DNA of 64,000 nt from Rhodospirillaceae bacterium SYSU D60007 (GCA_003574685.1 QOCQ01000009.1:62001-126000); one strand, 5' to 3'; positions 16,856 through 60,346 are shown, counted from the first letter of the stretch. Notes: generated from the sequence alone by a model not told the origin. Numbers and translations: made by a program.

Positions 16856-17572
16856 ATGATCGATCTCTACTACTGGCCGACGCCCAACGGCTGGAAGATC
16901 ACCATCATGCTGGAGGAATGCGGGCTGCCCTACCGGATCGTGCCGGTGAACATCGGCGCGGGCGAGCAGTTCAAGCCTGACTTCCTGAAGATCAGCCCCA
17001 ACAACCGCATGCCCGCGATCGTCGATCACGATCCGCCGGACCACGGTGCGCCAGTGGCCGTCTTCGAATCCGGCGCCATCCTGCAATACCTCGCCGAAAA
17101 GACCGGCCGGTTCCTGCCCGCCGATCTGCGCGGCAAGTACGAGGTGCTGCAATGGGTCAACTGGCAGATGGGCGGCCTGGGCCCGATGGCCGGGCAGGCC
17201 ACACATTTCAACGTCTATGCGCCGCAATTCACCCCGGCCGAAAAGCTGGATTACGGCCAGAACCGCTACACCAATGAGGTGAACCGCCTGTTCGGCGTGC
17301 TCGATCGGCGGCTGGCCGACCGCGAGTTCGTGGCCGGGGGCTATTCGATCGCCGACATGGCGATCTGGCCCTGGGTGCTGCCGTACAAGAACTTCCGCCA
17401 GAACCTCGATGACTTCGCCAATCTGCGGCGCTGGTTCACCGACACCATGGGCCAGCGTCCGGCGGTGCAGAAGGGCAAGGAGGCCGGCAGCGAGCTGCGC
17501 CGGCCGCAGACTGTGCATAGCGAGGAGGAGCGCCGCATCCTCTTCGGCCAGACCGCCGCCACCGTGCGCTAG
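16856..17572 (+). CDS. yfcG: Glutathione transferase, YfcG (Nu) type
   Basis: 238 residues from the ATG at 16856 (GGAG upstream). The N-terminal thioredoxin fold shows YYWPTPNGWKITIMLEE and ISPNNRMPAIVDH (cis-Pro) and ESGAILQYLAEKTGRF, the pattern of YfcG, a disulphide-bond reductase that uses two glutathiones and a Thr/Asn instead of the usual Tyr/Ser. The C-terminal helical domain (FNVYAPQ, YSIADMAIWPW) is typical. An extra 25-residue tail after the domain is charged. A second gene of the same type is at 20884; about half of positions agree by eye. Confidence 0.88.
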   Translation: MIDLYYWPTPNGWKITIMLEECGLPYRIVPVNIGAGEQFKPDFLKISPNNRMPAIVDHDPPDHGAPVAVFESGAILQYLAEKTGRFLPADLRGKYEVLQWVNWQMGGLGPMAGQATHFNVYAPQFTPAEKLDYGQNRYTNEVNRLFGVLDRRLADREFVAGGYSIADMAIWPWVLPYKNFRQNLDDFANLRRWFTDTMGQRPAVQKGKEAGSELRRPQTVHSEEERRILFGQTAATVR

Positions 17573-17583
17573 CGCAAGGGGCG

Positions 17584-17778
17584 TCAGTCCGGTTTCCGGC
17601 GATCAGGCGAGGGCTGGCCGGGTTCGCCGGGTGGCTGGCCGGGATACTCGTGCGGCGGCTGGCCGCCCTGGCCGTAGCCCGGCACCTCGTCCTGCGGGAT
17701 GTTGGGACCGTCCGGTCCGGGCTTGCGGATCTGGCGCTGGATGTTGGGCGCCGGATCGTCATTGCTGTACTTCTTCAT
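17584..17778 (-). CDS. Small proline-rich hypothetical protein
   Basis: 64 residues. Starts MKKYSNDDPAPNIQRQIRKP and is then rich in Pro, Gly, Gln and Asp with GQPP repeats (GQGGQPPHEYPGQPPGEPGQ). No signal peptide, no membrane segment; probably disordered. Its ATG overlaps the TGA of the upstream gene by 4 bases, so the two are likely translated together. Function unknown. Confidence 0.6.
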   Translation of the reverse strand: MKKYSNDDPAPNIQRQIRKPGPDGPNIPQDEVPGYGQGGQPPHEYPGQPPGEPGQPSPDRRKPD

Positions 17779-18101
17779 GGCGCATCTCCGGGACGGTTGT
17801 CATGACCAGCAGTCATGGCGAACAGCTCTTCCGCGGCCGCTTCTGAAGGCGGCAGCCCGAGGCTGATCTGCGACAGCAGGTGCTCGACCAGCCGCTGGGC
17901 CTCACCGAGCTGACCGCGCTTCAGGGGCACGCAGGTGTTGCGGTAGCCCTCGCCGCGAGCGTCGTCCTGCCAGATGATGTCCAGCGAAGCGGACGCTGTG
18001 TTCACCCCGGCGAAACGGAGGAACGGCCGCCCGTCGAAGATCGTCAACAGCAGCTCGCGCAGCCGCGCCGGCGAGTCGGGAATGGTGGGGGTCAACTGCA
18101 T
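17775..18101 (-). CDS. Hypothetical protein
   Basis: 108 residues from an ATG at 18101; alternative starts lie at 18150 (ATG) and 18173 (TTG) and none has a good ribosome site. The sequence (PARLRELLLTIFDGRPFLRF, a central beta-rich part with DIIWQDDARGEGYRNTCVP, and an amphipathic helix QRLVEHLLSQISL) looks like a small globular domain. I do not recognise the family. Linked by a 4-base overlap to the proline-rich gene; divergent from the amidohydrolase gene. Confidence 0.55.
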   Translation of the reverse strand: MQLTPTIPDSPARLRELLLTIFDGRPFLRFAGVNTASASLDIIWQDDARGEGYRNTCVPLKRGQLGEAQRLVEHLLSQISLGLPPSEAAAEELFAMTAGHDNRPGDAP

Positions 18102-19039: not shown

Positions 19040-19620
19040 GGATCGGGCACGACAACGCTCAGGCCTTCTCCCCGCGAAGGCGGGGAGAAGGTGCCCGAAG
19101 GGCGGATGAGGGGCTTTGCGGCTTCCCATCCCGCTTCATCGCGCTTGTGGCGACGCCGGAAAGCCCCTCATCCGGCGCTGCGCGCCACCTTCTCCCAGCC
19201 TTCGCGGGGAGAAGGGAGACAGGCTATGTCGTTGCGGCAGCCGCGCTGCTGGCAGCAAGCGCAGCGCAGGCGTGCGAGCCGGCGCTACGTGGGGAGGGCG
19301 TGAGGGTGATGCGCTCGGCGGCCTATGCCGCGGCGTGGGTACCGAAGCCGGCGCCCATTCCGCTCGGGGTGCATTTCACGCTGGAGCTGGCCGTATGCGC
19401 CAGCCAGGGACAGGCTGCGGTGGAGGCGGTGGCGATCGATGCCGTCATGCCCGAGCACCGGCACGGCATGAACTATCGCGCCACGGTGGCGCCGCTGGGG
19501 GAGGGCCGCTACCGCGCCGAGGGCCTGCTGTTCCACATGCCCGGCCGCTGGCGGCTCAGCGTGGAGCTGCGTGCGGCCGGCAAGACCGCGCGGCTGGCCG
19601 ACGAGTTCGTCGTGGAGTGA
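19036..19620 (+). CDS. YtkA-like secreted protein with a repeat-derived N-terminal extension
   Basis: 194 residues if translated from the ATG at 19036 that overlaps the upstream stop. Residues about 10-60 are encoded by a dispersed palindromic repeat (19064-19215). Only after it comes what looks like a signal peptide core (GYVVAAAALLAASAAQAC, about 63-80), with no ATG, GTG or TTG in frame between. The mature domain, about 115 residues, has the YtkA-like/FixH-like beta pattern with MPEHRHGMNY, a His/Met-rich stretch that may bind copper, and LLFHMPGRWRLSVEL. It may be exported poorly or not at all if the long N-terminus is real. Context suggests a partner of the following di-haem peroxidase. 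Confidence 0.65.
   Translation: MRIGHDNAQAFSPRRRGEGARRADEGLCGFPSRFIALVATPESPSSGAARHLLPAFAGRRETGYVVAAAALLAASAAQACEPALRGEGVRVMRSAAYAAAWVPKPAPIPLGVHFTLELAVCASQGQAAVEAVAIDAVMPEHRHGMNYRATVAPLGEGRYRAEGLLFHMPGRWRLSVELRAAGKTARLADEFVVE
19064..19215. repeat. Palindromic dispersed repeat, family A copy 1 (inside a coding sequence)
   Basis: About 152 bases. Begins CCTTCTCCCCGCGAAGGC and ends CCTTCGCGGGGAGAAGG, with inner arms GGATGAGGGGC and GCCCCTCATCC. Copies 2 and 3 at 42621-42773 and 56037-56189. This copy lies in frame at the 5' end of the YtkA-like gene. Confidence 0.85.
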
Positions 19621-21514: not shown

Positions 21515-21593
21515 CTTCATGGTGAGCCTGTCGAACCATGAAGCGGACCGCACTACTGTGCGCCTTCATGGTTCGACAGGCTCACCATGAAGG
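21515..21593. repeat. Palindromic dispersed repeat, family B copy 1
   Basis: Near-perfect inverted repeat: CTTCATGGTGAGCCTGTCGA...CATGAAG and its mirror around a spacer of about 19 bases. Further copies at 26251-26302, 47343-47420 and 52751-52837. Confidence 0.85.
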
Positions 21594-42620: not shown

Positions 42621-42773
42621 CCTTCTCCCCGCGAAGGCGGGGAGAAGGTGCCCGAAGGGCGGATGAGGGGCTTCGCGGCCTCTCCTCATCGAACCATCGT
42701 GTGGGTTGCGGCGCCGCCAAGCCCCTCATCCGGCGCTTCGCGCCACCTTCTCCCCGCCTTCGCGGGGAGAAGG
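42621..42773. repeat. Palindromic dispersed repeat, family A copy 2
   Basis: CCTTCTCCCCGCGAAGGC at one end and CCTTCGCGGGGAGAAGG at the other, with GGATGAGGGGC / GCCCCTCATCC inside, as in copy 1. It separates the converging TRAP-binding and amn genes and could end both transcripts. Confidence 0.85.
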
Positions 42774-47342: not shown

Positions 47343-47420
47343 GCTTCATGGTGAGCCTGTCGAACCATGAAGCGGCCGGCGTTACGATGCCTTCATGGTT
47401 CGACAAGCTCACCATGAAGG
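47343..47420. repeat. Palindromic dispersed repeat, family B copy 3
   Basis: GCTTCATGGTGAGCCTGTCG and the mirror GGTTCGACAAGCTCACCATG around about 20 bases. Lies between the converging SDR and IclR genes. Confidence 0.85.
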
Positions 47421-50788: not shown

Positions 50789-52732
50789 ATGGCCAACTCC
50801 AACGAACCGCTGCGCCCTGCGACACCGCTGCTGGATGCCGTGCGCATACCGGCCGATTTGCGGCGCCTGCGGCCGGACCAGTTGCGCCAGCTTGCCGACG
50901 AGCTGCGGCAGGAGACGATTTCGGCCGTGTCGGTGACCGGCGGCCATCTCGGCGCCGGCCTGGGCGTGGTCGAGCTGACCGTGGCGCTGCACTACGTGTT
51001 CGAGACGCCGCGCGACCGCCTCGTCTGGGACGTGGGCCACCAGGCATATCCCCACAAGATCCTCACCGGACGGCGGGACCGCATCCGCACCTTGCGCACC
51101 GAGGGCGGCCTCTCCGGCTTCACCCGCCGTAGCGAAAGCGAGTACGACGCTTTTGGCGCTGCCCATTCCTCGACGTCGATCTCGGCGGCGCTGGGCATGG
51201 CCGTAGCGCGCGACTTTGAGGGCAAGCCGCACCACGTGGTGGCGGTTATTGGCGACGGGGCGCTCAGCGCCGGCATGGCCTACGAGGCGATGAACAACGC
51301 CGGCCATTTGCGCAGCCGGCTCATCGTCATTCTCAACGACAACGACATGTCGATTGCGCCGCCTACCGGTGCGCTGTCGGCGCATCTCTCGCGCCTGATC
51401 TCGTCGCGCCCCTACCTGTCGCTGCGGCAACTCGGCAAGGCCTTCGCCGAGGCGCTGCCACGGCCGCTGGAGCAGGCGGCGCGGCGTGCCGAGGAATTCG
51501 CGCGCGGCTTCGTGCAGGGCGGCACGCTGTTTGAGGAGCTGGGCTTCTATTACGTCGGCCCGGTGGACGGCCACAACATCGAGCATCTGCTGCCGGTGCT
51601 GCGCAATGCGCGCGACAGCGATGTCGACAAGCCGATCCTGATCCATGTCGTGACGCGCAAGGGCAAGGGCTATCCGCCGGCCGAGGCCAGCGACGACAAG
51701 TACCATGGCGTGGTCAAGTTCGATGTCGTCACTGGCAAGCAGGCCAAGGCGCCGAGCAATGCGCCGAGCTATACGTCGGTGTTCACCAGGGCGCTGATCG
51801 CCGAAGCGGAGGCGGATCCGAAGATCGTCGCCATCACGGCGGCGATGCCCGGCGGCACAGGCCTCGACCAGTTCGCGAAACGCTTTCCGCAGCGTTGCTT
51901 TGATGTGGGCATCGCCGAGCAGCACGCGGTGACCTTCGCCGCCGGCCTCGCCTGCGAGGGCTACAAGCCCTTCGCCACCATCTATTCGACCTTCCTGCAG
52001 CGCGCCTACGATCAGGTCGTGCACGATGTGGCGATCCAGAAGCTGCCTGTGCGCTTCGCGCTGGATCGCGCCGGGCTGGTTGGCGCCGACGGTGCGACGC
52101 ATGCCGGCAGCTACGATGTGACCTATCTCTGCTGCCTGCCGGATTTCGTGGTGATGGCGGCGGCGGACGAGCTGGAGCTGGTGCACATGGTGGCCACGGC
52201 GGCTGCCATCGACGACCGGCCCTCGGCGTTCCGCTATCCGCGCGGCGAGGGTGTCGGCATCGAGTTGCCGGCGCGCGGCATGCCGCTTCAGATCGGCCGC
52301 GGCCGCATCGTGCGCGAGGGCAGCAAGATCGCCATTCTCAGCTTCGGCGCGCGCCTGCAGGAGTCCCTGAAGGCGGCCGACGAGCTGGCCGCGAGGGGAT
52401 TGTCCACGACGGTTGCCGATGCGCGCTTCGCCAAGCCGCTGGATACCGCACTGGTCGATCGTCTGGTGCGCGCGCACGAGGTGCTGATCACGATCGAGGA
52501 GGGCGCCATCGGCGGCTTCGCGGCGCAGGTGATGCAGCATCTCGCGGTATCAGGTGCGCTCGATCACGGGCTGAAGATCCGGCCGATGATCCTGCCCGAT
52601 CGCTTCATCGATCACGCCTCGCCGGCGCGCCAGTACGAATGGGCCGGCCTCAACGCCCGCCACATCGTGGCCACCGCCCTGCAGGCCCTCGGCCAGCCGG
52701 CCGACTCGGCAGACACATCCGCCCGCGCCTGA
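50789..52732 (+). CDS. dxs: 1-deoxy-D-xylulose-5-phosphate synthase
   Basis: 647 residues with GAGGGAGC before the ATG. First enzyme of the MEP pathway: pyruvate plus glyceraldehyde 3-phosphate to DXP. ThDP-binding [35 protein letters not shown] and [18 protein letters not shown] are diagnostic. Full length. The next gene in many relatives is tlyA; here other genes intervene. Confidence 0.97.
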
Positions 52733-52750: not shown

Positions 52751-52837
52751 GCTTCATGGTGAGCTTGTCGAACCATGAAGCGCCCAGGCTGCCAGTCGTG
52801 GGACGCCTTCATGGTTCGACAGGCTCACCATGAAGGC
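52751..52837. repeat. Palindromic dispersed repeat, family B copy 4
   Basis: GCTTCATGGTGAGCTTGTCG and the inverse CCTTCATGGTTCGACAGGCT around about 25 bases, between dxs and the MATE gene. It may end the dxs transcript. Confidence 0.85.
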
Positions 52838-52898: not shown

Positions 52899-54269
52899 AT
52901 GACCGTTCTGAAGGAAGCGCGCGCCACGCTGGCGCTGGCGCTGCCGATCGTCGGCACCCAGCTTGCGCAGATGGCGATACACACGACTGATGTCTTCCTG
53001 CTGGCGCGCCTGTCGGAGCGTGCGCTGGCCGCGAGCGCGCTTGCCATCTCGATCTTCAGTTTCTTCATGATGATGTGCCTTGGCCTCGCGATGGGCACCT
53101 CGGCGCTCGCCGCGCAGGCGCGCGGTCGCAATCGCGCCGATCGCGAAAGCGTCCGGCACGCCGTGCACGACGGGCTGATCGTCACCGGTGTCGGCTCGAT
53201 CATCTCCATGGGCGCATTGTGGTTCAGCGGCCCGCTTCTGCGGTGGTCGGGCCAGGATCCCGATCTGATCACGGAAACCGTGCCCTTCCTGCGCGTGCTG
53301 AGTCTGGGCTTCCCGGCCCTGATCTGGTTCGCCGTGCTGCGCGGCTTCACGGCGGCGCTGGAGCGGCCGCGGCCGGCCATGGTGCTGATGGTGGCCGCCG
53401 TGGGCCTCAACGCAGTGGTCAACTACGGGCTGATCTATGGCGCCTTCGGCCTGCCGCGGCTGGAGCTGATCGGCGCTGCCATCGGTTCCGTGACCGTAGA
53501 AATCGCGATCCTTCTCGCGCTCGCGGTTTATCTGCGCATCGACCCGCAGTTTGCCGCCTATCACTTGGCACGCGGCTGGTGGCGTAGCACGGTGGCGCGG
53601 TTGACACATTACGTCCGTATCTCGGGGCCGATTGCGCTCACGTTCGCATCCGAGGTCGGCCTGTTCTCGGCCGCCGCCCTGCTGATGGGGCGCCTGGGCG
53701 AGAGCGAAGTGGCGGCGCACCAGGTCGCGCTGCAATGGGCGGCCATCAGCTTCATGGTGCCGATGGGCATCTCGCAGGCGGCCACGGTGCGCGTCGGGCT
53801 TGCCGCCGGAGCGCGCGATCCTGGCGGTGTGCGCCGCGCCGGCTGGATCGCCATCGGGCTGGGCGTCGGCTTCATGGCCTGCGCCGGCCTGATGTTCTGG
53901 CTGGCGGGCGGCTGGCTGATCGCAGTGTTCGTGCCGTCGCCCGCTTCGCCGGTCTACGCCCTTGCCGTTGCCTATCTGGGCTGGGCCGCGCTGTTCCAGA
54001 TCGTTGACGGCGCGCAGGCCGTGGCCAATGGCAGCCTGCGCGGCCTGCATGACACGGCGATCCCCATGGTGATCGCCGCCGGCGGCTACTGGCTGGCGGC
54101 GTTTCCGGCCGCGATCTGGCTGGGCCTGTTCACGCCACAACGCGGCGAAGGCGTGTGGGCGGGTCTGGCTTTCGGGCTGGCGCTGGTGGCCATCCTGCTG
54201 GTCTGGCGCTTTGCCGCGCGCACGCGGTGGAGTCGGGCACCTGCCGTGGCACCCGCCGTGGCGGAGTAG
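52899..54269 (+). CDS. MATE-family multidrug exporter
   Basis: 456 residues with twelve predicted membrane segments and the family's two-fold layout. Typical parts: LALALPIVGTQLAQMAIHTT at the start, ALAASALAISIFSFFMMMCL, and VAAHQVALQWAAISFMVPMG in the second half, with GLAAGARDPGGVRRAG. Expels cationic or aromatic compounds using Na+ or H+. No regulator next to it. Ends 1 base before the small membrane gene on the other strand. Confidence 0.93.
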   Translation: MTVLKEARATLALALPIVGTQLAQMAIHTTDVFLLARLSERALAASALAISIFSFFMMMCLGLAMGTSALAAQARGRNRADRESVRHAVHDGLIVTGVGSIISMGALWFSGPLLRWSGQDPDLITETVPFLRVLSLGFPALIWFAVLRGFTAALERPRPAMVLMVAAVGLNAVVNYGLIYGAFGLPRLELIGAAIGSVTVEIAILLALAVYLRIDPQFAAYHLARGWWRSTVARLTHYVRISGPIALTFASEVGLFSAAALLMGRLGESEVAAHQVALQWAAISFMVPMGISQAATVRVGLAAGARDPGGVRRAGWIAIGLGVGFMACAGLMFWLAGGWLIAVFVPSPASPVYALAVAYLGWAALFQIVDGAQAVANGSLRGLHDTAIPMVIAAGGYWLAAFPAAIWLGLFTPQRGEGVWAGLAFGLALVAILLVWRFAARTRWSRAPAVAPAVAE

Positions 54270-54270
54270 G

Positions 54271-54552
54271 CTAACGCGGCTCCACGCCAATGGTGTCCTT
54301 GATGGCGGCGAAGAGGCGGGCGGGGCCAGCGGCCATCATGGCTTCGTGCCAGACATTGGCGGCATCCGACAGGGCGAGGCTGAAGCGGCTGGGCGGCAGG
54401 TTCTGCGTCCAGCGTACCAGCCCTTGCGAGTTGAAGACGAAGAGCAGCGCCACCGCGATCGTCATCACCGGAACGAACGAGCGGATGTGCGAGGGCCGCA
54501 TGCCCGCTTCGAGATCGTGCGTGCCCAGGGCAATGTCGTCACGGGGGCTCAT
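54271..54552 (-). CDS. Small single-span membrane protein of the O-acetylation cluster
   Basis: 93 residues from an ATG at 54552, with GAGG nine bases upstream formed by the end of the MBOAT gene. One membrane helix at residues about 26-44 (FVPVMTIAVALLFVFNSQGL), then a periplasmic tail with RWTQNLPPSRFSLALSDAAN and IKDTIGVEPR. Last gene of the MBOAT/SGNH group; probably an accessory of the acetylation complex, by position only. Confidence 0.7.
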   Translation of the reverse strand: MSPRDDIALGTHDLEAGMRPSHIRSFVPVMTIAVALLFVFNSQGLVRWTQNLPPSRFSLALSDAANVWHEAMMAAGPARLFAAIKDTIGVEPR

Positions 54553-54563
54553 CAGGCCATTCC

Positions 54564-55991
54564 TCAGAACTGGAAGTAGATGAAGGGCGCGGCGCCGTCG
54601 CCGCCGACCGCTTCGATCAGCAGCAGGCTCACGCCCGCAGCGACGCCAACGCCCCATGTCGGCAGGCGGTGGTACAGCCGGTCCAGCCGCTGCAGGGTAT
54701 CGGCCGGTGTGAACTGGATCGCCATGCCGAAGGCGATCAGCGCCAGCAGGAAGCTGTTCAACAGCGTCACCGGCTGCGACCAGTTCGCGAGGCCTGTCAG
54801 CAACTCCCACGCGCGGGGCATGTCCTCGGCACGGAAAAAGACCCAGCACAGGCACACGAAGTGGAAGATCAGGAACACTGACAGCACGCGCTGCCAGAGC
54901 GGGCGGCCGATACGCGCGGCCGGATCGTGGCCCTTGTACAGGAACCGTTCCAGTGCCAGCACGCCGCCATGAAGCGCGCCCCACAGCACGAATTTCCAGG
55001 CGGCGCCGTGCCACACGCCGCCTAGCACCATGGTGAGCAGCAGGTTGCGGTAGGTCTTGAACTCGCCGTGCCGGTTGCCGCCCAGCGGGATGTAGAGATA
55101 GTCGCGCAGCCAGCTTGACAGCGACATGTGCCAGCGGCGCCAGAAATCCTGCAGCGACTCGGCGCGGTAGGGCTGGTTGAAGTTGCGCTGGAAACGGTAG
55201 CCCAGCAGCGCCGCAACGCCGATGGCGATGTCGCTGTAGGCGCTGAAGTCGCAGTAGATCTGGATGGCGTAGCCGTAGACCGCGAACAGCAGGTCGACGG
55301 CGCCGAAGCTGGCGGGCGCGAGGAACGCATGGTCGACCAGCAGCACGGCAAGGTAGTTGGCGATGACGGCCTTCTTGAAGACGCCCCACACGACCAGCAT
55401 CACGCCCAGCCCGACGAACACGCGGTTGGGATTGGGCGGCTGCTCGAGCTGCGGCAGGAAGCTGGCGGCGCGCACGATCGGCCCGGCCACCAGGTGCGGG
55501 AAGAACGAGATGAAGAACATCACGTCGACCAGCGGCCGGCTGCGGTCGAGATGGCCGCGATAGAGATCGACGATGTAGGAGATGCCCTGGAAGGTGAAGA
55601 AGGAGATGCCAATCGGCAGCACGATCTCGAGGAACGGCAGCTCGCGCTCCAGCGACAGCGCGCGCAGCGCCTCGTCGAGCGAGACGATGAACCAGCCGTA
55701 GTATTTGAAGAAGCCCAGCAGCGAGAGATTGGCCGCCACCGCCAGACCGACGGTCCATTTGGCGGCCCTGGTGCCGCGCCAGCGGTCGATCAGCCGGCCG
55801 GCAGCGAAGTTCAGCACCACGCTGCCGAGGAGCAGGAACATCAGCTTCCAGCTCCAGAAGGCGTAGAAGAAGTAGCTGGCGCCAATGATCAGCAGCTTGT
55901 GCAGCAGATGCTGGCGCAGCAGCGCCAGCCCCCACGAGGCAGGCCACACCACGAGGTAGAACAGCAGGAAATTGAGCGTCGGAAAGATCAT
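54564..55991 (-). CDS. MBOAT-family O-acyltransferase (AlgI-like)
   Basis: 475 residues from the ATG at 55991; the longer reading passes through a repeat. A polytopic membrane protein that passes acyl groups across the inner membrane. The MBOAT His is at about 328 in VLGGVWHGAAWKFVLWGALH; upstream FWRRWHMSLSSWLRDYLYIP supplies the second conserved block. Both match AlgI/PatA-type proteins that acetylate polysaccharides together with SGNH partners, two of which are encoded next to it. Confidence 0.93.
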   Translation of the reverse strand: MIFPTLNFLLFYLVVWPASWGLALLRQHLLHKLLIIGASYFFYAFWSWKLMFLLLGSVVLNFAAGRLIDRWRGTRAAKWTVGLAVAANLSLLGFFKYYGWFIVSLDEALRALSLERELPFLEIVLPIGISFFTFQGISYIVDLYRGHLDRSRPLVDVMFFISFFPHLVAGPIVRAASFLPQLEQPPNPNRVFVGLGVMLVVWGVFKKAVIANYLAVLLVDHAFLAPASFGAVDLLFAVYGYAIQIYCDFSAYSDIAIGVAALLGYRFQRNFNQPYRAESLQDFWRRWHMSLSSWLRDYLYIPLGGNRHGEFKTYRNLLLTMVLGGVWHGAAWKFVLWGALHGGVLALERFLYKGHDPAARIGRPLWQRVLSVFLIFHFVCLCWVFFRAEDMPRAWELLTGLANWSQPVTLLNSFLLALIAFGMAIQFTPADTLQRLDRLYHRLPTWGVGVAAGVSLLLIEAVGGDGAAPFIYFQF

Positions 55992-56036
55992 GCCGGCACG
56001 CACCGGCCGTGGCGGACACGCAGGCGTCTCCTTCTG

Positions 56037-56189
56037 CCTTCTCCCCGCGAAGGCGGGGAGAAGGTGCCCGAAGGGCGGATGAGGGGCTTCGCAGCCTCTC
56101 CACATCGCGCCGCCGTGCTTGTTGCGAGGCCTTGAAGCCCCTCATCCGGCGCTGCGCGCCACCTTCTCCCCGCCTTCGCGGGGAGAAGG
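56037..56189. repeat. Palindromic dispersed repeat, family A copy 3
   Basis: Same outer arms as copies 1 and 2 (CTTCTCCCCGCGAAGGC / CCTTCGCGGGGAGAAGG). It lies between the MBOAT gene and the SGNH lipoprotein gene and takes up half of a 314-base gap that has no gene. Confidence 0.85.
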
Positions 56190-56196
56190 AAATACT

Positions 56197-56247
56197 TTCG
56201 TCGTTCCGCATGGCCGCAAGGTCCTTCGCTTCGCTCAGGACGACGGC
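56197..56247. repeat. Family C repeat, single arm
   Basis: GGCCGCAAGGTCCTTCGCTT then CGCTCAGGACGACGG, equal to the right arm of the repeat at 32594-32719, without the left arm. Lies directly beside family A copy 3. Confidence 0.7.
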
Positions 56248-56305
56248 AGATCGCCATATGCGATGGACTCACCGGCATTCTGTGCGCACTACCGGCATCG
56301 GTCCG

Positions 56306-57625
56306 TCAGCGTCCGCGGTAGCCGCGCATCAGCGCCGCGAAGAGCTGGTCGGCCGACTGCCAGTAGCCGTCCTGGCGCATGTGAACGCGGTCGCGATGGG
56401 CCAGCTCCTGGCGGGCCCAGCGGTCGGCGCCGCAGGTGCCGCCCTGCACGGCGGCCCAGTTCCAGAAGTACATGTTGAGCTGACGCGCCACCTGCTGCTG
56501 TGCCTGGCGCACGTAGTCGACGGCGGCAGGGGTGTGCCAGCGGCAGAGCTTGCGGTCGTTGTTGGCCAGCAGGCTGGAATAACTCGCGGCCTCGGCGCGG
56601 TTCAGCGGCACGCAGGGCCGCTTGTCGCCGATGTTGCGCCCGCAATAGCCGGGCAGCCGGTTGGCATCCGGCGGCCCGACAATGACGATCGATGCGCCCG
56701 GCGCGGCGCGCTGCAAGGTCAGCAGGCGCTCGCGGAACTCGCCGGCATAGTCGCCGAGCTGCTCCTGCGGCGCGAAGCCCTCGTTGGTGCCGAATGCCAC
56801 AATGATCAGCGCCGGCCGCAGGTGGCGCATCTGCTCGGCCACGAGATGGAAGTTCCAGCGGCCCAGCAGGTTGATCTGCGCGCCGCTGAAGCCGTGGCTG
56901 GTGAGCACCACGCCCGGCGTGCGGCGGTAAACCGCCCAGTCCGCCACATCCACCAGGCCGTTGCCGCGGGGCCGCAATTCGACATGCGCCGATCCCGGTG
57001 CATCGAAGCTGCGCCGGAGGATGTCGTAGACGGCGCCGCGCGTGTCGATGGCGCCGGCGCTGCGGCCGTCGATGAACACGTCGAGCGTGCCGCCGCCGGG
57101 CTGGCGCATCACTTCGACCTCGACGCGGTCGAAGGTGCGTCCCTCCGCCGCCGAGAGTGTCATCGAGTCGTCCCGCGACCGGCCGCGCACCACAAAGCCC
57201 GAGAGCCCGTAGATGCCGGCATTTCCGTTGCCATTGCTGTTGCTGCTCAGCACCTGCCAGCCGCCGGTCTGGCTTACCTCGACCTGGTAGGGCCGCCAGT
57301 AGGGGAAGGGCGAGCCGGGCGGCAGCATGCCACGTCCGCCATCGCCGAAGCGCTGCTGGAAGAGCTCGCGCAGCCGGCCGCTGAAATGGTCGGTGGCGGT
57401 GTGCGAATCGCCAATCTGAACAATGGTGACGCGCCCGATCCGGTGGCTGCGCAGGTCAGCCAGCGCCTTGTGGAAATTGGCGAGCTGGCCGGGATTGGGC
57501 GGCTGGGCCGCCACCTGCTGATCGCCGCGGCGGTCCTCGGCAGCGGACTGGCTCAGGCATGCGGCGGTGGCAAGAACGAGAACGGCGGCCGCCAGGAGCG
57601 CGGCCGCGGAGCGGAGAGGGGACAT
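56306..57625 (-). CDS. SGNH/GDSL hydrolase, probable lipoprotein
   Basis: 439 residues. Signal peptide with a possible lipobox (LATAAC, Cys23). Catalytic Ser74 in IVQIGDSHTATDH, Gly/Asn block in AFGTNEGF, and Asp-x-x-His in HRDRVHMRQDGYWQ near the C-terminus. An inserted beta domain (residues about 110-215, GRGMLPPGSPFPYW onwards) separates the first two blocks. Members work with MBOAT proteins as periplasmic O-acetyltransferases or esterases. Transcribed before the MBOAT gene. Confidence 0.87.
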   Translation of the reverse strand: MSPLRSAAALLAAAVLVLATAACLSQSAAEDRRGDQQVAAQPPNPGQLANFHKALADLRSHRIGRVTIVQIGDSHTATDHFSGRLRELFQQRFGDGGRGMLPPGSPFPYWRPYQVEVSQTGGWQVLSSNSNGNGNAGIYGLSGFVVRGRSRDDSMTLSAAEGRTFDRVEVEVMRQPGGGTLDVFIDGRSAGAIDTRGAVYDILRRSFDAPGSAHVELRPRGNGLVDVADWAVYRRTPGVVLTSHGFSGAQINLLGRWNFHLVAEQMRHLRPALIIVAFGTNEGFAPQEQLGDYAGEFRERLLTLQRAAPGASIVIVGPPDANRLPGYCGRNIGDKRPCVPLNRAEAASYSSLLANNDRKLCRWHTPAAVDYVRQAQQQVARQLNMYFWNWAAVQGGTCGADRWARQELAHRDRVHMRQDGYWQSADQLFAALMRGYRGR

Positions 57626-57673
57626 GGCAACTCTTTGACTCTTCTTGCGCCGGGAGGGGTCCGGCGAGGGCCA

Positions 57674-58501
57674 TTATCGCGGCAGAAGGCGGAATTTGGG
57701 AGAGGCTTCTCGCAGAAGGTTGAGGACGGATTCGGCGATCAATTCGTAGCCTGCCGGCGTGAAGTGCACCCCGTCATTGTCGCGCATCAGACGGGTCTTG
57801 CCGTTCAGGTCCTTGAAGTAGGCGGCGTATTCGCCGTCCGCATCGGCTGTCAGTGCCCAGGTGTCGAGCGTATGCACCCACGGCCGTTCGGCGGCGGCCT
57901 TGCGCACCAGATCGTTGATCAGCTTGGCATCGCGCGAGGCGGTTTCGTCCCGCATGACCGGCAGCAGAATCCATACCACCGGCACGTCGCGCCCCTTGAG
58001 CTCGTCCATGAAGGCCGCGGCCCGCCCGCCATAGAGGTCCTGCCATGACGGCGTGGCGAACAGCGCCTTCGATTTGCCGTTGACGAAGAAGCTGCGCCGG
58101 TCGTTGGCGCCCACCATCATCACTATCGCGTCGGCCGGTGTCGGCTTGAAGGCATCCTCGATCTGGTCGATCAGGCCTGCGGTGGTGAACCCCGTCGAGT
58201 TTCTGGCAACGCGGCGGACCGCGTAGCGCTTGTCGCGCACCAGCCTGCGGTAGAGCGCGCCCCAGATGCCGTCCGCCAGCGAGTCGCCGGTGACGGCTAC
58301 CGCCACCTTTTCCGGCACAGGCGGCTCTTCCTTGACCTTGCCGCGCGGCAGGAAGGCGGCGGGAAAAAGGGGCACGCCGGCGCGCGCCAGCAGGAGCTCG
58401 CCGGCTTGCAGATCCTGCTGCGCCTGCGCTGCTGTACCGAAGCACAGGCAGAAGGCGACGATCAGGCCCAGAAGGTGCATCGTCATGGTGGGCACGGACA
58501 T
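57674..58501 (-). CDS. SGNH/GDSL hydrolase, DUF459-like
   Basis: 275 residues; starts at 58501 or at an inner Met at 58486 or 58480. Signal peptide LLGLIVAFCLCFGTAAQAQ. Ser74 in AVTGDSLADGIWGAL, VGANDRR as the Asn block, and DGVHFTPAGYELIA with the Asp-x-x-His pair. DUF459 proteins are periplasmic SGNH enzymes seen near MBOAT or murein genes. It ends 48 bases before the second SGNH gene on the same strand. Confidence 0.87.
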   Translation of the reverse strand: MSVPTMTMHLLGLIVAFCLCFGTAAQAQQDLQAGELLLARAGVPLFPAAFLPRGKVKEEPPVPEKVAVAVTGDSLADGIWGALYRRLVRDKRYAVRRVARNSTGFTTAGLIDQIEDAFKPTPADAIVMMVGANDRRSFFVNGKSKALFATPSWQDLYGGRAAAFMDELKGRDVPVVWILLPVMRDETASRDAKLINDLVRKAAAERPWVHTLDTWALTADADGEYAAYFKDLNGKTRLMRDNDGVHFTPAGYELIAESVLNLLREASPKFRLLPR

Positions 58502-58564
58502 ACCAAATTCATACTACATACCTGTGCAGGATGTGAGGGTTTGCCGTGCCGCACCCGTGCATCA

Positions 58565-59335
58565 TCAGAGCGCCGGCCGGGGCATCCAGCTGATCGTGTC
58601 CATCCCGCCGTCAACGGCAATGGTGGCGCCCGTCACGTAACGGCCGAAGCGTTCGCTGAGGACAGCCACCGCCATCTGGGCGATGTCATCAGGGGTGCCG
58701 ACGCGGCCCAGCGGAATGAGATCAACCAGCCCCGGCATGCCGGCAAACCCGCCGCCCGGCACGGCGCCGGGCGCAATGGCATTGACCCGGATGCCGTCGG
58801 GGCCCAGCGCGCGGGCCAGCTCCTTCATCACCATGGTCGTGCCGGCCTTGGCCGCGCTGTAGTGCGGCAAATTGCGCGGCGTCTCGGCATGCAGCGAGGT
58901 CACATAGAGGATACGGCCCTTGATCCGGTGCTGGCGCATGTGGCGCGCCGCCTCCTGGCCCAGCACGAAGCCTGCCCGCAGGTTGACGTTCACCATCGCA
59001 TCCCAGGTCGCGTCCGTGACGCTCAGCACCGTGTCGCCTTCGACGCGACGCGGGCTTGCGCCATGCACCAGGACCGACACCTTGCCGAGCCGCGCGACAG
59101 CGTTTGCCCAGAGCGCGCGGGCTCCTTCCGGGGTGGCGAGATCGGCAGCCGCGAATGTCACATCCAGCCCGGCCCGGCGCGCCTCGGCTTCGACTGCGGC
59201 ACCCTTGCCGGCATCGATGTCGGCGCACAGCACGCGGGCGCCTTCCTGCGCCAGCGCCATGACAATGCCGCGCCCGATACCGGCAGCGCCGCCGGTCACC
59301 AGCGCGGTATCTCCTTCCAATAACCTGTCCGCCAT
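58565..59335 (-). CDS. Short-chain dehydrogenase/reductase
   Basis: 256 residues. TGGAAGIGRG cofactor loop at residues 14-23, catalytic Ser in YVTSLHAETP and YSAAK, then NAIAPGAVPGGG and a C-terminal VTGATIAVDGGM. NADP or NAD preference cannot be told from D38-IDAG (Asp suggests NAD). Upstream of the SGNH genes on the same strand with a 63-base gap, so it may share their promoter. Divergent from tlyA. Confidence 0.93.
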   Translation of the reverse strand: MADRLLEGDTALVTGGAAGIGRGIVMALAQEGARVLCADIDAGKGAAVEAEARRAGLDVTFAAADLATPEGARALWANAVARLGKVSVLVHGASPRRVEGDTVLSVTDATWDAMVNVNLRAGFVLGQEAARHMRQHRIKGRILYVTSLHAETPRNLPHYSAAKAGTTMVMKELARALGPDGIRVNAIAPGAVPGGGFAGMPGLVDLIPLGRVGTPDDIAQMAVAVLSERFGRYVTGATIAVDGGMDTISWMPRPAL

Positions 59336-60211: not shown

Positions 60212-60341
60212 GGCCGGGGGCGCGCCACTCCAGTGGCGCATCGCCCGCAGCGAAGCAAAGGGCGACCAGCCGCGTGTGTACAAGCCTGGATGATGGCGGC
60301 GTTGGCACGCCGCCGACGCCACTGGAGTGGCGCGCTCCCAG
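60212..60341. repeat. Palindromic dispersed repeat, family D copy 2
   Basis: CGCGCCACTCCAGTGGCGC on the left and CGCCACTGGAGTGGCGCGCT on the right, about 80 bases apart, as in the copy at 16651. Between the converging tlyA and sppA genes. Confidence 0.8.
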
Positions 60342-60346
60342 CAGAA

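Follow-up and report, generated by a model that had tools for sequence, protein, structure and literature searches.

The stretch of DNA analysed here (the window) comprises 64,000 nucleotides from Rhodospirillaceae bacterium SYSU D60007. Between dxs and tlyA it carries a four-gene operon on the minus strand, patB-ape1-patA-smp, enclosed by a gene for a MATE exporter on one side and a gene for an SDR oxidoreductase on the other (Table 1). The genes of the operon encode two SGNH proteins, an MBOAT acetyltransferase and a small membrane protein (SMP), the start of smp lying 11 nt past the stop of patA. In the window species the SDR gene is co-directional with patB and lies 63 nt upstream of it, and it may be cotranscribed with the operon. 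All genes named in the original prediction for this region are present where it placed them.

Table 1 Genes and paired palindromes of the dxs-tlyA region (window coordinates).
Feature	Coordinates	Strand	Remarks
dxs	50789-52732	+	present as originally named
Paired palindrome of a dispersed family, dxs-MATE gap	52752-52835		two 29-nt inverted arms
MATE exporter, NorM type	52899-54269	+	not an operon member; G025 and G032 also have it between dxs and tlyA
SMP, single-pass membrane protein, 93 aa	54271-54552	-	kept after patA across Alphaproteobacteria
PatA-like MBOAT acetyltransferase, 475 aa	54564-55991	-	MBOAT 8.3e-28; orthologues share its start and C-terminus
Paired palindrome of a dispersed family, inserted in the ape1-patA gap	56037-56189		L034 and L037 lack it here
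Ape1-like O-acetylpeptidoglycan esterase (putative; SGNH1), 439 aa	56306-57625	-	N. meningitidis Ape1 4k3u, E 1.6e-29
PatB-like SGNH O-acetyltransferase (putative; SGNH2, DUF459), 275 aa	57674-58501	-	DUF459 1.2e-51; PDB PatB matches
SDR oxidoreductase	58565-59335	-	not an operon member; adjoins tlyA in other Reyranellaceae genera
tlyA	ends 60206	+	present as originally named
Dispersed paired palindrome after tlyA	60213-60342		more pairs in the window

The order dxs-MATE-[smp-patA-ape1-patB]-(SDR)-tlyA was found in four genomes of the genus, the window genome included. In G002 it is spread over two contigs, consistent with this order and with some extra DNA after MATE, and in G001 and G003 the SDR gene is gone from the tlyA side. 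Other genera (g2, g5 and one g3 genome) also keep smp-patA-ape1-patB together, but away from dxs-tlyA, and in them an SDR gene, alone or with others, mostly stands between dxs and tlyA. The expectation that relatives commonly have tlyA beside dxs holds for other families of the class, where the two can be nearly adjacent (G036, G040, G034 and G028), but not for the Reyranellaceae, where they are mostly already split by an SDR gene, alone or with further genes. The SDR gene is therefore an old neighbour of tlyA. Likewise, the MATE gene lies between dxs and tlyA in the order-mate G025 and in G032 and adjoins tlyA in G026, and is therefore an old neighbour of dxs. At dxs-tlyA the genus differs only in where the four-gene operon lies: the synteny comparison called for at the outset revealed that, among the relatives examined, only the window genus has it between dxs and tlyA. 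Since it occupies this position in 4/4 genomes of the genus and lies elsewhere in other genera, the operon has moved but is not new. Genus groups g1 and g5 come out in the PatA tree as they do in the dxs tree, and the operon therefore looks mainly inherited within the family; the one PatA copy from g3 has diverged further, and its grouping with another MAG is weak.

The whole block from MATE to SDR had been read as a single module, and a recent foreign insertion bounded by repeats would fit both the closer spacing of dxs and tlyA in relatives and the presence of the four-gene operon at this place in the window genus only. Such an origin is nevertheless highly improbable, given that MATE and SDR are old residents, the GC content is flat across the region, and the PatA and dxs trees give the same genus groups. 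Repeats do exist at both ends and inside, as had been noted, but they belong to three unrelated dispersed families and do not form borders. In the genome, the arm of the palindrome following dxs occurs 132 times forward and 136 times in reverse, compared with 0 for a reversed-pattern control. The palindrome between ape1 and patA and the one after tlyA differ in sequence from each other and from the first, and each has further pairs in the window. None of the three is found at the corresponding joints in the congeners L034 and L037. Being dispersed and absent at these joints, they are no marker of insertion ends and represent ordinary dispersed REP-like pairs. Other members of the first family lie at 21517-21590 and 47346-47417 of the window, and of the second at 19064-19215 and 42621-42773; both of these families are abundant.

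SGNH2, the product of patB, matches the solved PatB structures of C. jejuni (1e-16) and N. gonorrhoeae (1.9e-12) in the PDB. Its triad, Ser74, Asp243 and His246, and the block-III Asn133 are invariant in 10 orthologues. Residue correspondence with PatB was read from alignments using the numbering of PMC12148441, and by this measure the block-II Ser102 aligns with Asn165 of the C. jejuni protein and Ser161 of the N. gonorrhoeae protein. In PatB transferases the block-II Gly is replaced by Ser or Asn (PMC12148441); in the PatB of some Rhizobiales loci this position is Gly. Of the hydrophobic wall, Val245 is present, and the position of C. jejuni Leu254 aligns to Ala188. SGNH2 has no N-terminal membrane helix followed by two amphipathic helices; only about 70 signal-peptide-like residues precede its SGNH domain. 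Its score against the NCBIfam PatB equivalog, 66.8 bits over profile positions 139-332 of 347, is below the 580-bit cut-off, and we therefore describe it as PatB-like and not as a curated equivalog. A second DUF459 protein with a PatB score similar to that of SGNH2 is encoded on contig C45 of genome G000 (17208-17816, L179).

The match of SGNH1 to N. meningitidis Ape1 runs through the segment inserted after motif I. In an alignment of 11 orthologues its triad is formed by Ser74, Asp412 and His415, and the block-II Gly is kept. The features of the Ape1 subfamily, as defined in PMC1199599, are all present: the GDSHTA motif, an insert of about 100 aa, the block-II Gly and the D-x-x-H motif. The block-II Ser of SGNH2 and the Gly of SGNH1 mark the former as the predicted transferase and the latter as the predicted esterase. 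SGNH1 also has a Cys at position 23 in a lipobox-like setting in 10 of the 11 orthologues, which suggests a lipoprotein esterase.

The predicted fold of PatA is that of an MBOAT protein (pLDDT 88.6), with DltB as the best PDB match, the tail being modelled with low confidence. The C-terminus reads FIYFQF (F470-I-Y472-F-Q-F475) and fits the acyl-shuttle motif FXYXXF; the catalytic H328 as well as F470, Y472 and F475 are invariant in 41 alphaproteobacterial PatA sequences. The Tyr of this motif is auto-acetylated in C. jejuni PatA, and PatB accepts the acetyl group from an acetylated peptide that carries the tail sequence of N. gonorrhoeae (PMC12148441). The same study describes Glu7 of PatA as strictly conserved and, in the C. 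jejuni PatAB model, in contact with the membrane helix of PatB (PMC12148441). Position 7 is Asn in the window protein and Glu in only 7 of the 41 alphaproteobacterial sequences. In an unrooted tree the alphaproteobacterial MBOATs form a clade of their own, with no specific joining to beta- or gammaproteobacterial PatA.

A longer MBOAT frame (54564-56105), starting at 56105, was rejected as spurious: it begins inside a dispersed repeat, and its first ~38 residues match dozens of sites in the window genome and its relatives. The additional N-terminus being repeat, the start of PatA was placed at 55991, where MIFPTLNF... is conserved in orthologues. Another MBOAT, ending in FVYFDF, is encoded on contig C45 of G000 at about 210000-214000 (locus L054, 8102-13195). 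Its neighbours are SGNH-like proteins and genes resembling those of sugar or nonulosonic acid biosynthesis, and the locus is probably a separate surface-glycan acetylation set.

The original prediction of an O-acetylation set was borne out by the identification of its MBOAT, PatB-like and Ape1-like components. What had been regarded as a new envelope-modification system carried by an insertion matches the OAP (patB-ape1-patA) cluster: three of the four genes (patB, ape1 and patA) belong to the named system, and SMP is without a named family. The clustering of pat, patB (ape2) and ape1 that characterizes an OAP cluster is found at the window locus, and the same gene order occurs in about 80 alphaproteobacterial loci. 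With the OAP systems of Neisseria and Campylobacter (PMC12148441, PMC6174289), the operon shares an MBOAT with a C-terminal FXYXXF tail, a PatB-like SGNH protein with the triad and the block-II substitution, an Ape1 with the inserted segment, and the placement of all genes in one operon. It differs from these systems in that its order is patB-ape1-patA and not patA-patB-ape1, its PatB is without the long N-terminal membrane region, its PatA is without the conserved Glu7, and patA is followed by an additional small membrane protein gene. A closer layout is that of the alphaproteobacterium Zymomonas mobilis, which is among the OAP clusters described by Weadge et al. 2005 (PMC1199599). In the available part of that account, ape2 (now patB) and ape1b lie upstream of pat, a cell wall hydrolase gene is nearby, and a fourth gene is not mentioned. 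This arrangement, followed immediately by such a hydrolase gene, recurs in four Sphingomonadales loci (L113, L146, L148 and L226), where the gene, matching PF07486 or so annotated, lies on the opposite strand. The alginate (AlgI-AlgJ-AlgX-AlgF) and cellulose (Wss) systems follow the same MBOAT-SGNH logic; in contrast to them, the window operon has no adjacent polymer synthase, and both of its SGNH proteins match PatB and Ape1.

Based on these similarities, we interpret patB-ape1-patA-smp as an O-acetylpeptidoglycan operon in which acetyl groups would be relayed from PatA to PatB and removed by Ape1, with SMP holding PatB on PatA (probability about 0.75). The operon's products very probably put acetyl groups onto the bacterial cell wall and take them off again. 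By analogy with the homologues, His328 of PatA would take the acetyl group from cytoplasmic acetyl-CoA and transfer it to Tyr472 of the C-terminal hexapeptide of PatA itself, and the tail would pass it on to Ser74 of PatB. Ser74 would then esterify peptidoglycan, probably at the C6-OH of MurNAc, and Ape1 would take the acetyl group off, allowing lytic transglycosylases to act. SMP most likely holds PatB against PatA, as the N-terminal membrane helices of PatB itself do in Campylobacter and Neisseria.

Peptidoglycan is the likely acceptor. Because the alphaproteobacterial MBOATs do not specifically join beta- or gammaproteobacterial PatA, this assignment rests on the similarity of the SGNH proteins to PatB and Ape1. 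The same enzymes could instead act on a periplasmic or surface glycan, the Ape1-like SGNH1 being the matching esterase or a second transferase, and the failure of these MBOATs to form a sister group to Neisseria PatA leaves some room for this, as does the occurrence of the FXYXXF tail in the MBOATs of other polymer systems, including the C45 protein encoded near sugar-biosynthesis genes. We consider such an acceptor unlikely, since the closest solved relatives of both SGNH proteins are PatB and Ape1, the same layout is classed as OAP in Zymomonas (PMC1199599), and the operon is not accompanied by a glycan synthase. That a local polymer synthase is lacking, as noted originally, is to be expected with peptidoglycan as the acceptor. 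The proposed search for co-occurring polymer genes yielded no polysaccharide polymerase among the 20 flanking genes scanned (0/20), and the flanking genes vary from locus to locus. The absence of a polymerase beside the operon fits a ubiquitous acceptor.

The three-enzyme system and its order are already known; the conserved small membrane protein is the new and unexpected part. A profile built from 64 loci separated SMPs (E <=2.6e-9) from everything else (>=0.17) among 23,261 ORFs, and SMP is present in 72 of 73 assessable named alphaproteobacterial loci. It lies directly after patA in 64 of the 73, beside patA on the opposite strand in five, and some way downstream of patA in two. In one further locus, L094 (5433-6704, Roseomonas genomospecies 6), it is fused to the N-terminus of PatB and no separate copy exists; the profile search found no SMP in L136. 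The fusion was seen in one species only, and a second example was not found in a plasmid collection, where only the SGNH part was matched. The five opposite-strand loci (L095, L096, L097, L099 and L114), from Xanthobacteraceae and relatives, have smp convergent with patA. In the Komagataeibacter loci L098, L106 and L107, Ape1, PatA and SMP are encoded together and a PatB-like gene is set apart from them, a few kb upstream and on the other strand. A second sample of 387 evenly drawn genomes of the class contained 17 with Ape1, including the window genome and G034. In all 15 of the remaining Ape1-bearing genomes, PatB, Ape1, PatA and SMP are encoded in operon order; in L222 about 3 kb intervene ahead of patA. 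Three of these 15 loci (L213, L216 and L217) were already in the profile set and 12 were new.

The substitution pattern of SMP is that of a coding gene. The model shows three helices: a membrane helix, a short one and a long one. An Asp-Leu pair before the membrane helix is conserved, as are W48, W68 and G76 after it. The protein ends in ...IGVEPR and has no FXYXXF motif. It matches no family in Pfam or NCBIfam, a structure search against the PDB gave no significant match, and in Sphingomonas sp. R1 it is annotated as a hypothetical protein. A literature search of incomplete coverage found no named fourth OAP gene, and SMP appears to be undescribed. The combination of an MBOAT, an SGNH protein and a single-pass membrane microprotein is shared with the Gram-positive DltB-DltX-DltD system. 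DltX bears the acyl-shuttle motif, whereas SMP does not, as PatA carries it instead, and the window operon has no DltA or DltC carrier genes.

We hypothesize, at about even odds, that SMP links PatA with PatB in much the way that DltX links DltB with DltD. In the C. jejuni PatAB model, the N-terminus of PatB, a membrane helix with two surface helices, packs on PatA near Glu7 (PMC12148441). SMP is proposed as the coupler based on the lack of this region in the window PatB, the similar architecture of SMP, the location of smp beside patA and the single PatB fusion. The chances are equally balanced that it is a subunit, obligatory and so far undescribed, of the peptidoglycan O-acetyltransferase of Alphaproteobacteria, namely a shuttle-less DltX-like microprotein bridging PatA and PatB. 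Direct homology of SMP to the PatB N-termini of Neisseriaceae is unsupported: HHalign detected none (probability 1.4%, reversed control 1.1%). Neisseria/Moraxella PatBs were sampled by family, order-level sampling having given few PatBs. Moreover, SMP is still kept beside Sphingomonadales PatBs that have an N-terminal hydrophobic segment of their own. Taken together, these two results make the tether role a hypothesis. Somewhat less probable than this coupling is that SMP does not tether PatB but has another function, for example to regulate PatA, to stabilize it, or to link the complex to the cell-wall growth machinery. Its retention beside those Sphingomonadales PatBs agrees with such a function, and the conserved residues on both sides of the membrane helix suggest contacts beyond anchoring, while contact between PatA and PatB is favoured by the L094 fusion with PatB and by the location of smp immediately after patA.

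In the sampled Alphaproteobacteria, ape1 is as a rule part of the four-gene form. Apart from Dlt, MBOAT/SGNH pathways have been stated to lack a DltX-like microprotein (PMC12148441); if SMP couples PatA to PatB as proposed, this statement would fail for Alphaproteobacteria. A conserved microprotein beside PatA could reveal how an MBOAT that itself bears a shuttle tail brings in the SGNH protein it works with.
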